Source of the DNA: a virus
IMG/VR virus record: IMGVR_UViG_3300022933_000023
Location: 1 to 24,438 of that record
DNA: 24,438 nucleotides
Reading direction: 5' to 3' (one strand)
The position numbers and the translations under genes were made by a program. The notes beneath the pieces are model-generated. The model was not told the origin of the DNA. It saw only the letters and a program-made list of their open reading frames with translations, and did no database searches. Below are positions 5,903-24,438 of this stretch, one piece after another. Numbering within the stretch: position 1 is the first letter of the stretch; each line of letters starts with the position of its first letter.

Positions 5903-6214
5903 ATGGCTAAACGACTACTAAGTGAAAATCAGATGACCGGCACTAAAACGTATCACGATTATGATGCGTCGAGTGATCAGTCCGTCATTACGACATCAGC
6001 AGATGTCACAGACATTATTGAGTCGAACAAAGCACAGTTCAACGACACCGACGAGCGGGCGCGATACGGCGACATGAGTAAGGTCGCAAGTATCCCGATG
6101 AACGTCTATTTCGACTTGAAGAAAAGAGGGATTCTGAACGACCAGAAGAAGATGAAAGCCTGGTTGAACGATCCCGACAATCGCTATTTTCGGACTAGAC
6201 CTGGAAGAGTGTAA
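5903..6214 (+). CDS. Small conserved protein of the head-tail junction region
   Basis: A 103-residue soluble protein of unknown function. The N-terminal half is polar (NQMTGTKTYHDYDASSDQS). The C-terminal half is basic and helical, ending in LKKRGILNDQKKMKAWLND and NRYFRTRPGRV. Proteins with the same closing pattern (KKWLND..NR.FRT.PGRV) occur after the capsid gene in many short-tailed phages; I know of no assigned role. The ATG lies right after the terminator and has no clear Shine-Dalgarno sequence (upstream bases are ATTTTAATTT). An AGGAG lies before the hairpin, 40 nt away. The stop overlaps the next start (TAATG), so the two are probably translated together. A start at the internal ATG of residue 11 is possible but has no better ribosome site. 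Confidence 0.75.
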   Translation: MAKRLLSENQMTGTKTYHDYDASSDQSVITTSADVTDIIESNKAQFNDTDERARYGDMSKVASIPMNVYFDLKKRGILNDQKKMKAWLNDPDNRYFRTRPGRV

Positions 6215-6831
6215 TGGCAATAACGAATTACGGAGAACTGAAAACAGCAGTCGCAGATTGGCTCAATCGTGACGACCTGACTTCAGTGATTCCAACCTTT
6301 ATCGACCTCGCTCATGCGAAGTTAAATCGACGGTTAAGAGTGCGGGAAATGATACAGCGCACAACGGCTGGTATTTCTGGGCAATTTAGCAATTTACCAG
6401 AAGATTTCTTAGAGCTGCGGAACATTCAACTGAATGGAAACCCTCCGCGATCCATTGAGTATATGACAATTGAGCAGATGGATCAGGAGCGCCGACTAAA
6501 CAGCACTCCCCGCACTCCGGTCTATTACACCCTGATGGGATCACTGCTCGAATTGTTCCCGACTCCCGATCAGGATTACACGCTGGAACTCGCGTACTAC
6601 AAGACTATTCCAACGATGGCCGCAGATGCCGACACCAACTGGTTGCTGACTAAAGCACCAGACACTTATCTTTATGGCGCTCTGCTTCAAGCCGCACCTT
6701 ACTTGAAAGATGCTGAAGAAACCGGATTATGGCTGCAAGCACATGACATGGTTGTCGCTGAGTTAGAGACAGAAGACATCGGTGCGCGATACGGTGCATC
6801 AACTCTCAAAGCGAGACATAGGACGTACTAA
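6214..6831 (+). CDS. Head-tail adaptor protein
   Basis: A 205-residue protein likely to form the adaptor ring under the portal. Its features match the adaptor family of SU10-like phages. It begins with a helical N-terminal segment (YGELKTAVADWLNRDDL) and IPTFIDLAHAKLNRRLR, continues with a beta region (FSNLPEDFLELRNIQLNG and the YYTLMGSLLELFPTP strand pair), and ends with a helical stretch with LLTKAPDTYLYGALLQAAPYL. The TYLYGALL.A..YL motif is a recurrent mark of this adaptor group. It overlaps the previous gene by 1 nt, and the next ATG starts immediately after its stop. Its position after the capsid gene and before the tail genes agrees. I am confident of the family, less so of its exact place in the neck. 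Confidence 0.8.
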   Translation: MAITNYGELKTAVADWLNRDDLTSVIPTFIDLAHAKLNRRLRVREMIQRTTAGISGQFSNLPEDFLELRNIQLNGNPPRSIEYMTIEQMDQERRLNSTPRTPVYYTLMGSLLELFPTPDQDYTLELAYYKTIPTMAADADTNWLLTKAPDTYLYGALLQAAPYLKDAEETGLWLQAHDMVVAELETEDIGARYGASTLKARHRTY

Positions 6832-8082
6832 ATGGCTAGAGGTTCGTGGGCAGCATCGACTGACACTTGGGCAACGATCACTGGTGGTGATTGGGATGCC
6901 GCAGCCGGAGGTACGACCTACGCCGACACGATTACATTAGCCTGTACGGGGGGATTCACCGATAGCGCGAGTATGTTTGCGCCAGAGAGCATCACCGCAG
7001 CCTCAACGCTGGGTGGCGCGATGTCTGGGGCAAATGCTTTGACGGAATCCACTATTATTTCTGGATCTTACAGTGCGACAGACTCAGCCAGTTTAGCTTT
7101 ATCTGAATCTTCTAGTCTTACAAATACGTTAAGTTTTACAAACTCAGCCAGTTTAACTTTGGCCGAAGCTACCAGCATATCAAATACGCTCGGCATGACC
7201 GACAGCGTACTGTACAAATTATTAGCTACCGGAAGTCTCGGTCAATCCCTGTCGTCAAGCATCTCTGAAAATGCGGTGATGCCAGGCTCGATTACGATGA
7301 CCGGTGAGTTGGATTTCAGAGATGGTGCGGCTAAAACCTTTGCCCGTACAATCACAATGTCTGGGTCTTTGGGTGTATCAGAAAGTAACACCGCAATCTT
7401 TGATGCGGCAGCAGCGCTCACCACTTCGATATCGACTCTTTCCGACGCAAGCGCCGTTATTAGTTCTAGTGGTTCACTGACTAATACGCTGTCAGCATCG
7501 GTACTGCCCGCATTCCAGTTTGCAGAAGCCCTCAGCACACAAATAACACTTAGTAGCGCAACGTCGGTTCAAATTTCTATGCCTGTGGCTCCGGCATACG
7601 GTGTGTCGTTAGGTTTCTTAGATCGTGGAGATGAGAACTTTTTGTTCTCGGCAACGGCCACATTCTCGGCGGGGGTTTCGCTAACAGATTCCGCTTCGGT
7701 GGGGGTGAGTGTTTCTGGCGATATCGCCACAGCTTTATCAGCCACAATCGTACCCGCGTACCAGTTAGCTGGAACATCGAATTTTAGTTTAAATCTTGAT
7801 TCCACCGCTGGCTCGGTAGCCTATCTGTCTGCGACTGCGCTGATGCCGATGGGTGTTGGGACAGAAATTGCGGGGGCCGGTTTTGGCTACATCGACAGCG
7901 TGGTGTTAGGCGCTGAGATTGTGATGAGTAGCACCGGTGACTATTTGTGGAGCAAGGAAGAAATGAACGACGTACAAAATCCCACTTGGGGCGAGGCCGT
8001 AGACGATGTGACTACACCGACTTGGGCAACCCCAACAGAGGACTCACAAACAACAACCCAATGGGGAGAAATAATTAAATGA
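6832..8082 (+). CDS. Repetitive Ser/Thr/Ala-rich virion protein
   Basis: A 416-residue low-complexity protein rich in Ser, Thr, Ala and Leu, with no predicted membrane helix. Residues about 40-130 contain imperfect 20-residue repeats (TDSASLALSESSSLTNTLSF, then TNSASLTLAEATSISNTLGM). Later units look alike (LSASVLPAFQFAEALS and LSATIVPAYQLAG), so the whole body seems built of diverged strand-forming repeats, as in fibrous beta-solenoid or beta-prism virion parts. Both ends carry Trp-Thr motifs: WAASTDTWATITGGDW at the start and PTWGEAV, PTWATP and TTQWGEI at the end. It lies between the adaptor and fibre genes with zero spacing from the former. I recognise no family. A structural or decoration role is inferred from composition and position. 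Confidence 0.75.
   Translation: MARGSWAASTDTWATITGGDWDAAAGGTTYADTITLACTGGFTDSASMFAPESITAASTLGGAMSGANALTESTIISGSYSATDSASLALSESSSLTNTLSFTNSASLTLAEATSISNTLGMTDSVLYKLLATGSLGQSLSSSISENAVMPGSITMTGELDFRDGAAKTFARTITMSGSLGVSESNTAIFDAAAALTTSISTLSDASAVISSSGSLTNTLSASVLPAFQFAEALSTQITLSSATSVQISMPVAPAYGVSLGFLDRGDENFLFSATATFSAGVSLTDSASVGVSVSGDIATALSATIVPAYQLAGTSNFSLNLDSTAGSVAYLSATALMPMGVGTEIAGAGFGYIDSVVLGAEIVMSSTGDYLWSKEEMNDVQNPTWGEAVDDVTTPTWATPTEDSQTTTQWGEIIK
7082..7155 (+). repeat. 60-bp internal repeat units in the Ser/Thr-rich gene
   Basis: The 14-mer ACTCAGCCAGTTTA occurs at 7082-7095 and again at 7142-7155, exactly 60 bp apart. The flanking codons encode matching residues (SASL, then LTNTLSF or ISNTLGM). 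This is the best-preserved DNA copy of the 20-residue protein repeat and suggests fairly recent tandem duplication or gene conversion within the gene. Confidence 0.75.
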
Positions 8083-22643: not shown

Positions 22644-22866
22644 CAGTATCACCCTTCCACGCTATTTTGTTTTAGCGCTGGTATTTATGATAACGGTTCC
22701 ACTTTTGACCGCTTGCTCAACGGTGGCACTTGTCAGTCACGGTGCCAATTTAGCGGTATCTCAATACTGTTCTAAAGCGCCAGGTGCGGCTCGAAGTGTG
22801 ATCAGAAAGGCCGTTAACAAATCATTAGCCCCTAACTCGATAGCGATTACCTGTGCAGAAGATTAG
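22630..22866 (+). CDS. Small lipoprotein, candidate outer-membrane spanin or lysis accessory
   Basis: A 78-residue protein with a clear lipoprotein signal: a short polar start, a hydrophobic helix (YFVLALVFMITVPLL) and the lipobox LTAC with Cys29 as the modified residue. The mature part is only 50 residues, with two further Cys (QYCSKAPGAARSVIRKAVN; ITCAED) that may form a disulphide. It is set between DUF1353 and the endolysin, overlapping both (14 nt each). This is where outer-membrane spanins often sit. However, the mature part is not Pro-rich as in Rz1, and no matching inner-membrane spanin with an N-terminal anchor is seen nearby. Lipoprotein is well supported; spanin is only a guess. 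Confidence 0.7.
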   Translation: MKNDNSITLPRYFVLALVFMITVPLLTACSTVALVSHGANLAVSQYCSKAPGAARSVIRKAVNKSLAPNSIAITCAED

Positions 22867-23227
22867 TCAGCATTTCGCTAGAAGCGAGTTCGCTTGTCAG
22901 TGTGGTAATTGTCCACAGTCGAAAGACCCTACAGTTGATGTGACGCTGATCCAGATATTGGAAGAACTGCGACGGCATTTCGATACACCCATTACCGTCA
23001 CCTCCGGTGTCAGATGTAAATCGCATAATTCTGCATCGGGGGGCAGCGTTTTTTCAAAGCATCTTGAAGGAAAAGCAGCCGACGTACTTTTGAAAGGCGT
23101 AACGCCGGATCGAGTATACAAATATTTATTTGAGCGGTATCCTGATTCCTATGGTTTTGGAAAGTATGAAACCTTCACGCATATTGACAGTAGATCGCTA
23201 AAAGCTCGTTGGGAAATTAAGGGATAA
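22853..23227 (+). CDS. M15-family peptidoglycan peptidase (endolysin)
   Basis: A 124-residue enzyme with GTG start, overlapping the lipoprotein gene by 14 nt. It has the VanY/M15A pattern: FACQCGNCPQ near the start, LIQILEELRRHFDTPITVTS, then GVRCKSHN. The zinc-site segments are SKHLEGKAADV (H70, D77) and FTHIDSR (H110). The family cuts stem-peptide bonds such as D-Ala-D-Ala or L-Ala-D-Glu; here it should degrade peptidoglycan at lysis. There is no signal peptide, so release depends on a holin, for which the tiny membrane genes upstream are candidates. Length is typical for the stand-alone phage form. It is the last gene before the recombinase control region. Confidence 0.88.
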   Translation: MQKISQHFARSEFACQCGNCPQSKDPTVDVTLIQILEELRRHFDTPITVTSGVRCKSHNSASGGSVFSKHLEGKAADVLLKGVTPDRVYKYLFERYPDSYGFGKYETFTHIDSRSLKARWEIKG

Positions 23228-23234
23228 AAATAAC

Positions 23235-23280
23235 TTTACTTCAGATTTACTTCAAAAAAACCTTACTTCACTTTTACTTC
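23235..23280 (+). repeat. Four TTTACTTC boxes in two 11-bp-phased pairs (left arm)
   Basis: TTTACTTC occurs at 23235-23242, 23246-23253 and 23273-23280, and as CTTACTTC at 23262-23269. Starts within each pair are exactly 11 bp apart, one helical turn, so bound proteins would face the same side of the DNA. Such spacing is typical of integrase arm-type sites or excisionase (Cox/Xis-like) boxes. Confidence 0.7.
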
Positions 23281-23307
23281 ACCACCGCTGCAAACCCAGT
23301 AAACTCA

Positions 23308-23415
23308 GGGGGTGGTGGTGTCTCCCATGAGCTTTGGGCGTGTTCTGTGTATTTATGGGTATTTGTGGGTATTTGTAGTAAAAACAAGCATTTAGGCTGA
23401 GTTTTCACCACCCCC
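23308..23415. repeat. 10-bp perfect inverted repeat
   Basis: GGGGGTGGTG at 23308-23317 is the reverse complement of CACCACCCCC at 23406-23415, 88 nt apart. A further CACCACC at 23280-23286 can pair with 23311-23317 around a 24-nt loop. There is no T run, so it does not look like a terminator. It brackets the tandem 10-bp repeat. Confidence 0.6.
23346..23375 (+). repeat. Three tandem 10-bp units
   Basis: TGTGTATTTA, TGGGTATTTG and TGGGTATTTG stand head to tail; the last two are identical. The period of about one helical turn again suggests cooperative protein binding, perhaps by the integrase or an accessory factor, near the middle of the presumed attachment region. Confidence 0.65.
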
Positions 23416-23429
23416 ATTTGTGCTTTTCG

Positions 23430-23458
23430 TTGCAAAACTGGTTAAAAAGCGATATGGT
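23430..23458 (+). promoter_or_regulatory. Possible sigma70-type promoter for the integrase
   Basis: TTGCAA (23430-23435) and TATGGT (23453-23458) are separated by 17 bp; each matches the consensus at four of six positions. Transcription would begin within the right-hand TTTACTTC pair (23458-23476), so whatever binds these boxes could repress the gene. Confidence 0.4.
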
Positions 23459-23476
23459 TTACTTCTAATTTACTTC
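23458..23476 (+). repeat. TTTACTTC pair, 11-bp phased (right arm / operator)
   Basis: Two perfect TTTACTTC boxes at 23458-23465 and 23469-23476 have the same 11-bp spacing as the two pairs on the left side. They lie about 180 bp from the left group and just before the integrase start, giving a two-arm layout around a central segment. Confidence 0.7.
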
Positions 23477-23490
23477 AGTTGGGATCTGAG

Positions 23491-24438
23491 TTGGCGAATT
23501 TTACCAAGGTTGGTAGTCGCTACCGCGCGTCAGTGTGCGTAAACGGAAAGCGAAAATCAAAGACGTTTCGGACCAAGACCGAGGCGCGAGGTTGGGCGCT
23601 ACAAACTGAGATTGAAATAGAAACTGGTGTGGGTGACCCGACGCATTATCTCTTGGAAGATGCGCTGATTCGATACCGTGATGAGGTGACGGTTTTGAAG
23701 AAAGGCTCAAAACAAGAGGGTGATCGAATCAATGCCATGCTGCGTCTTCCACTGGCACAGATGCGACTCGATGATATTACCAGCGATGACATGGGGAAGT
23801 ATCGTGACGAGCGACTGAAGATCAACGGTGGTGGGACCGTGAACCGTGAATTGAGTTTAATATCAGTAATCTTCAATCGCGCCAGGATAGAGTGGAAGTG
23901 GGTGGACCATAACCCAATCTCAGATGTGACCAGGCCAAAGAACCCTAGACCAAGGGACCAACGGATTAACGACAATGAGATCCAGCGAGTGTGTGACGCT
24001 TTGGGTTATGCCGGTGGCGAGATAAATAGTAGTACCGATCTGGTTGCCGTGCTGTTTCTTCTAGCTATCGAAACTGCGATGAGGCTAGGCGAGTTGTGTG
24101 CGGTTGTGCCGAGCAGTGTACATTTGAGTGAGCGGTATGTTGAGGTCACTGATTCTAAAAACGGTGATAAGCGTAAAGTGCCGTTATCTATTAAAGCTGG
24201 TGAGCTATTTGGCAAGGTCATTCATGCTCAAATGAAGATCACTTCAGCCACTGCCGGAGCAATTTACCGTCAGCATCGTGGCGCGGCAGACATGGACCAT
24301 TTCAACTTCCACGACACAAGGCACGAAGCGATCACCCGACTAGCGCAGAAGCTGGATGTGTTGGACCTCGCCCGAATGATTGGGCATAGAGATCCAAAGT
24401 CACTAATGATCTACTACAATGCAACGCCGATTGAAATT
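23491..24438 (+). CDS. int: Tyrosine-type phage integrase (3' end cut by window)
   Basis: At least 316 residues in one frame open to the window end. The best start is TTG 23491 with GGGA 6 nt upstream, giving ANFTKVGSRYRASVCVNGKR, the usual N-terminal arm-binding domain of phage integrases. No ATG occurs until well inside the gene, so ATG-only searches miss it. A SAM-like core-binding domain follows (about 50-150: LRLPLAQMRLDDITSDDM; GTVNRELSLISVIFNRARIE). All catalytic residues are visible: R198 (TAMRLGEL), K223 (SKNGDKRKVPL), H274 and R277 (HDTRH), H299 (IGHRDP) and Y308 (MIYYNAT, nine residues after H299). Only a short C-terminal tail is missing. It integrates the phage DNA at the attachment site, presumably the repeat region directly upstream. 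Same strand as the late genes, an unusual but known arrangement. Confidence 0.93.
   Translation, partial: MANFTKVGSRYRASVCVNGKRKSKTFRTKTEARGWALQTEIEIETGVGDPTHYLLEDALIRYRDEVTVLKKGSKQEGDRINAMLRLPLAQMRLDDITSDDMGKYRDERLKINGGGTVNRELSLISVIFNRARIEWKWVDHNPISDVTRPKNPRPRDQRINDNEIQRVCDALGYAGGEINSSTDLVAVLFLLAIETAMRLGELCAVVPSSVHLSERYVEVTDSKNGDKRKVPLSIKAGELFGKVIHAQMKITSATAGAIYRQHRGAADMDHFNFHDTRHEAITRLAQKLDVLDLARMIGHRDPKSLMIYYNATPIEI

Follow-up and report, generated by a model that had tools for sequence, protein, structure and literature searches.

Phage lambda encodes a three-part tyrosine integrase and carries arm-type sites on both sides of the attP core, an organization that the locus described here shares, and lambda int is not known to be promoted from inside the P' arm. 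An arm-binding domain has been described as a mark of mobile-element integrases (PMC8138268). In the KplE1 IntS system, one of the P' sites extends over the -10 element of the integrase promoter, and IntS negatively regulates its own expression; the authors of that study predicted the same autoregulation for most tRNA-linked integrases (PMC2951348). Here, we analyzed the window, i.e., the whole stretch of 24,438 nucleotides that makes up virus record IMGVR_UViG_3300022933_000023 of IMG/VR, and we found that positions 23235-23476 are very probably the attP of a temperate SU10-like phage, with a set of short boxes acting as integrase arm-type sites and the P' pair of them lying over the putative int promoter. 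The features are as follows, named according to this reading.

22853-23227, plus strand: Peptidase M15_3 gene, ending 7 bp before the first box
23235-23253, plus strand: outer P-arm pair of boxes, TTTACTTC at 23235 and 23246, kept in all of the 8 related contigs that reach it
23262-23280, plus strand: inner P-arm pair, CTTACTTC at 23262 and TTTACTTC at 23273, located where nine other intact attPs have their only P pair
23317-23333, minus strand: predicted att core, TGGTGTCTCCCATGAGC on the plus strand; the minus strand resembles a tRNA 3' end (...GGGAGACACCA), 35 bp after the P pair
23343-23374, plus strand: second short array, TATTTATGGG-like, with a 10-bp period, between core and P', partially conserved in relatives
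23430-23458, plus strand: weak sigma-70-like putative int promoter, TTGCAA at 23430-23435, 17 bp, TATGGT at 23453-23458, set by eye, 8/12 to consensus
23458-23476, plus strand: P'-arm pair, TTTACTTC at 23458 and 23469, overlapping the -10-like element by one base, the first of the pair
23491-24438, plus strand: tyrosine integrase, start TTG at 23491, cut by the window end
23524-23526 and 23530-23532, plus strand: codons of integrase R12 and S14, within the predicted arm-binding sheet and helix (residues 2-45)

The window encodes SU10-type capsid and portal proteins and appears to be part of a temperate phage genome. The integrases of relatives have 321 residues, so that of the window is short of five residues and the stop codon. 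Its start is probably the TTG at 23491 rather than 23479, because ATG stands at 23491 in five related loci (L003, L004, L005, L007 and L008). The catalytic domain matched PF00589 (E 1.9e-18), and R198, H274, R277, H299 and Y308/Y309, which we take to be the catalytic R...H-x-x-R...H...Y set, were invariant among 49 sequences. In the structural model (mean pLDDT 91), the N-terminus is formed by strands 2-7, 10-17 and 20-26 and a helix at 29-45, and this N-domain gave a weak match to PF14657, Arm-DNA-bind_4 (E 2.9e-4; 20.8 bits, below the 22.3-bit cut-off). The best full-length Foldseek fold match was lambda Int (E 5e-12), and VIA-align placed 1z1b_A among the top matches (Z 19.0, rmsd 8.4, 302 aligned), with several Tn1549 and lambda rows tied. 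Among the structure matches listed, only whole-length lambda Int chains extended over integrase residues 1-49, a segment that these comparisons probed only slightly.

The box TTTACTTC occurs at 23235, 23246, 23273, 23458 and 23469, and the sixth box, at 23262, is the one-base variant CTTACTTC; all six are on the plus strand. The starts 23235/23246, 23262/23273 and 23458/23469 are spaced by exactly 11 bp in each case, and the three pairs reported in the initial annotation are thus borne out by the positions of the boxes, and by shuffling: the observed number of 11-bp-spaced pairs in the 263-bp region (23228-23490) was reached in 0/5000 dinucleotide shuffles. Five copies of some 8-mer appeared in 15/5000 of the same shuffles, and the window as a whole, both strands included, holds 7 exact copies of TTTACTTC against a shuffled mean of 0.70, a number reached in 0/100 shuffles. 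The array had also been called helically phased, and this is correct inside each pair, where the step is 11 bp, but not between pairs, since 27 bp (about 2.6 turns) separate the two left pairs from each other and 196 bp separate the inner left pair from the right one.

Next, the region was compared with eight related IMG/VR loci whose integrases are 94-96% identical to that of the window. All six boxes are kept in 7/8 of them, and five in the eighth (L006), a contig that begins inside the outer P pair. Counting the window and the relatives together, invariant columns amounted to 47/48 in the boxes, 122/177 (69%) between the arms and 83/128 at the end of the neighboring gene. A repeat that arose by chance or low complexity, without function, could be argued from the AT-rich composition of the boxes and from an unrelated AT-rich contig, L018, which has a tandem TTTACTTCGC run; yet the paired layout was absent from all 5000 shuffles and conservation within the region is highest at the boxes, and because of this conservation we regard the chance reading as refuted, with next to no probability left to it. 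In the viral contigs scanned, the double pair was found in seven contigs of the family and in L018, where four tandem TTTACTTCGC units with 11-bp steps lie at 1960-2000 of the reverse complement; no integrase was recognized by eye among the listed ORFs of L018. At the DNA level, the att region gave only short, chance-like matches to known phages.

Lysogens of relatives separate the arms. A strict pattern for a GCC or GAC box pair was searched in 23 lysogen genomes, and it matched in 21/23. Exactly two pairs, on one strand of one contig and 40-48 kb apart, were present in 6/23, and this two-pair signature was absent with the strict pattern in the other 17/23. When both ends were fetched from the six lysogens, P' was located at the int end and P beside the core at the far end. 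The core was the longest shared stretch in 4/6, at 35-46 bp from P and 121-137 bp from P' as measured by script; in the remaining 2/6 the longest shared stretch neighbors the core, and the far tRNA begins at the same place. ARAGORN detected a tRNA gene at the far prophage end in 5/6. The attL and attR junctions called for by the initial annotation are thus available as arms parted to two ends in six relatives, and no lysogen of the phage in the window itself was found. These genomes also bear on whether the boxes serve only to let a repressor or activator control the int promoter, with no role in recombination. The P' pair does overlap a -10-like element, as an operator might, but the other two pairs lie about 200 bp upstream, beyond the core, and in lysogens the P pair cannot serve the int promoter because it is 40-48 kb away from int; we consider this explanation highly improbable. 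Since the strict pair is confined in these six genomes to the two boundaries of a single element, a box with a constant and a variable part can be used as a means of locating prophage ends.

To place the core, we used loci that combine a strict P' pair with 300 bp or more of upstream sequence; there were 85, counting repeat contigs. In 30/85 the same box recurs as another pair, and the mean obtained with another triplet in the box was 0.05. Setting aside repeats, the family of the window and a single three-box overlap left nine other intact attPs. Their P to P' distance is 186-229 bp, and the corresponding values in the window are 196 and 223. A tRNA 3' end lies between the pairs in 9/9, which are not fully independent because some share a host group: it is a reversed TGGTG at a gap of 36 (four) or 46 (one), or a direct ACCA at 51-52 (four). 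The tRNA-derived core is therefore seen in both orientations relative to int within one integrase family (direct in L133 and L207, reversed in L012 and L175), and its offset from the P pair is fixed but orientation-dependent, i.e., 35-46 or 51-52 bp. The window has TGGTGTCTCCC at the place matching the tRNA 3' end of the nine other attPs, and its family shows [TC]GGTGTCTCCC at a gap of 35 (window, L002 and L009 displayed). On the basis of this fixed offset in the nine other intact attPs, the att core of the window is predicted near 23317-23333. The tRNA gene matching this core would end in GGGAGACACC(A); a tRNA gene ending GGGAGAC-N-CC(A) was found in 0/398 Pseudomonadota genomes and in 0/289 genomes of the class sample, and a narrower tRNA pattern, with up to 2 mismatches, in 0/274 genomes. 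The exact ATGGGAGACACCA gave 3 matches in 34 genomes, and these were rejected as the target, none of them being a tRNA.

The initial annotation had the right pair overlapping the expected transcription start of the integrase. Distinct relatives with TTAC boxes numbered 67, and in 29/67 the final base of a -10-like TANNNT coincides with the first P' base, as it does in the window, while the next highest offset accounted for 10 and most for 0-3. The proposed overlap thus draws its support from the relatives, whereas the candidate promoter of the window is weak and was missed by a consensus promoter scan at 9/12, which found none in the window. With the P' pair lying across the -10 and start region of the putative promoter, integrase bound there would be expected to shut down int, and we infer such repression from the P' pair for the integrase of the window.

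As to the protein that would bind the boxes, the initial annotation offered excisionase boxes beside arm-type sites. Excisionases often bind direct repeats one helical turn apart. The Apl sites of phage 186 are reported to be direct repeats of this kind (PMC7498355), and the relatives have, in convergent orientation to int, an AlpA-like gene that weakly matches an excisionase family (phrog_66, E 4.8e-5). This gene, past the window's end in relatives, is likely the directionality factor. Against its binding the boxes stand their presence at both prophage ends and a variable triplet within them that follows residues of the integrase N-terminal sheet (see below); moreover, a separate array with a 10-bp period between core and P' would suit a directionality factor better. 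We consequently find it improbable that an excisionase rather than the integrase occupies the boxes, and keep the integrase as their predicted ligand. The separate array (GTGTATTTATGGGTATTTGTGGGTATTTG; 23343-23374 in the window) may comprise the directionality-factor sites, and other short repeats are seen at a similar place in related attPs. Related contigs such as L009 run on past int into a gene block on the other strand. The gene with the AlpA-like helix-turn-helix is near int in both L009 (6261-6491, minus strand) and L005 (7411-7611, minus strand). In L005, a gene recognized by eye as DNA cytosine methyltransferase-like (5959-7131, minus strand) adjoins int; it is absent from the same place in L009, and such a gene next to the att site may represent variable cargo.

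The layout extends beyond the close relatives. From phages with integrases 38-45% identical, five were fetched, and a TTTACGCC-like pair precedes int in Turba, TRS1, BgVeeders33 and PAN70, the pair of Cr-LKS3 being more degenerate. A further such pair spans a tRNA-like segment in TRS1 and PAN70, and in Turba at the opposite end of the record. In a scan of bacterial genomes, the best 80 of 296 relatives were kept, 79 of them with enough upstream DNA. A pair of 9-mers spaced by 11 bp was found within 75 bp of int in 58/79 at a threshold of at least 7/9, in 44 at 8/9 and in 24 with perfect identity; random segments of the same loci gave means of 3.35 (at least 7/9; maximum 8 in 20 draws), 0.45 (8/9) and 0.1 (perfect). 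The remaining 21/79 of these relatives, from the best 80 of 296, had no pair at the threshold of at least 7/9. The commonest pair spacing in the bacterial relatives was 11, and there were shoulders at 10, 12 and 22. By our own count, 46/80 loci (best 80 of 296) have a tRNA gene that is read in the direction of int and whose end lies 142-236 bp upstream of it, and several other loci, from Pseudomonas and Acinetobacter, have a reversed tRNA end instead. Across the family, the boxes consist of a constant TTTAC half followed by a variable triplet. The search near the integrases of relatives that the initial annotation had proposed thus returned equal geometry with different box letters, and its remark that the motif matches no nameable arm sequence can be refined: the box of the window is the TTC version of this TTTAC-plus-triplet family, whose commonest form is TTTACGCCA.

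We then asked how the triplet varies with the integrase. Scanning covered 390 loci (repeat contigs included), of which 299 had an integrase ORF by motif and 179 had at least 55 bp upstream. These 179 represented 114 distinct N-terminal ends, and 63 passed a strict rule, i.e., both boxes with TTAC and the same triplet; the other 51/114 had different box halves (e.g., CCCC or TTGCC forms) or none, and stand outside the counts. The 63 strict cases formed 35 clusters at 75% N-terminal identity. At triplet base 1, Glu14 went with G in 20/20 clusters; Gln14 with G in 5, A in 1 and C in 1; Phe14 or Ala14 with A in 3/3; Arg14 with C in 2/2; Asn14 with C in 1; and Ser14 with T in 1, the window family, and with G in 1. 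Base 2 was C in 15 clusters, with Arg12 in 14 and His12 in 1. Arg12 was also found with A (6) and with T (1, the window family), Glu12 went with G in 2/2, and the remaining residues had C in 0/11. The window breaks the common pairing, as it has Arg12 yet T, not C, at base 2. A natural contrast is offered by Mannheimia 535AP2 (Gln12, GAC) versus Pasteurella Pm86 (Arg12, GCC).

To address shared ancestry, 1000 histories were simulated on a tree from which the N-domain had been left out. For base 1, residue 14 was the top partner, its score being reached in 0/1000 simulations, and residue 5 was nearly equal. For base 2, residues 7, 22 and 12 stood out (1, 0 and 3 of 1000, respectively), with 7 and 22 scoring above 12. 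A first tree-based test of independent pairs had only 4 well-supported pairs, none of them in the wrong direction (median p 0.25), and the tree-based pair test gave no direction for residue 24 versus box base 8. As an outside check, seven phages with integrases 32-36% identical were used; one had no box and L412 was left out, its box being settable by eye only. In the five others, Glu14 went with G in 3/3 and residues other than Glu14 were without G in 2/2, while Arg12 went with C in 2/2 and residues other than Arg12 were without C in 3/3; in 3/5 boxes the first half departs from TTAC, and their frames were checked by eye. Taken together, we give about even odds to a read-out code in which the N-terminal sheet sets the triplet, residue 14 (strand 2) reading base 1 and residue 12 base 2. 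Its rules, held with the same half-way confidence, would be that Glu pairs with G at both places, that base 2 can be C only with Arg or His at 12, and that at residue 14 Arg pairs with C, Phe or Ala with A, and the Ser of the window with T. Contact by residues 14 and 12 is offered as a proposal, because residues 5, 7 and 22 score comparably or higher. If the code is true, arm sites would be predictable from protein sequence. The co-variation may also reveal how such integrases choose sites, and it makes testable at the level of a family which arm-domain residues choose the arm sites, a question usually settled phage by phage via footprinting.

Collectively, the arm-type reading of the initial annotation is favored by the geometry in relatives, the split in lysogens, the tRNA end at a fixed place and the co-variation between box and N-domain, and its excisionase reading is the less likely one, given that the triplet follows the integrase N-terminal residues and boxes lie at both prophage ends. 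The assignment rests on comparison, i.e., conservation, layout, the split in related lysogens, the tRNA offset of relatives and the box/integrase co-variation; binding by the integrase of the window, its core, its promoter and the repression of that promoter follow from it by inference. In the mechanism that we propose, the N-terminal three-stranded sheet of the integrase would bind the TTTACTTC boxes, as two P pairs and one P' pair, and the catalytic part would act on the core near 23317-23333, which would mimic a host tRNA gene at its 3' end. Upon integration, one prophage end would receive the P pairs and the P' pair would remain with int, where the integrase may down-regulate its own expression in the manner of KplE1 IntS. 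An unexplained repeat thereby becomes an att site with parts that can be named from sequence alone.

Regarding the known systems, the IntS/TorI attL module of KplE1 resembles the layout proposed for the window, with the int promoter inside the att region and a P' site overlapping the -10 element (PMC2951348). Its int is negatively autoregulated at this overlap, whereas in the window repression is predicted by analogy; its P' sites share a conserved TAAA, the complement of which, TTTA, is the start of the boxes in the window; and its target is a tRNA gene, likewise in the relatives of the window family (PMC2951348). Unlike KplE1, the window has boxes that form direct pairs spaced by 11 bp and contain a variable triplet, and its predicted core is reversed relative to int. 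The layout of the KplE1 IntS type is thus already known, and the part that appears new is the co-variation of the triplet with residues 14 and 12; among the titles and openings of abstracts considered, a body of literature with most subscription journals outside it, there was no description of these arm motifs or of such a code. With respect to lambda, the N-domain sequence and the arm letters of the window differ. Also close are Acinetobacter phage vB_AbaS_TRS1 and Pseudomonas phages Turba and PAN70, with related integrases (42-45% identity): like the window, they have one pair before int and one across a tRNA-like core, and unlike it, they carry the box TTTACGCCA or a close form, a single P pair and another core.
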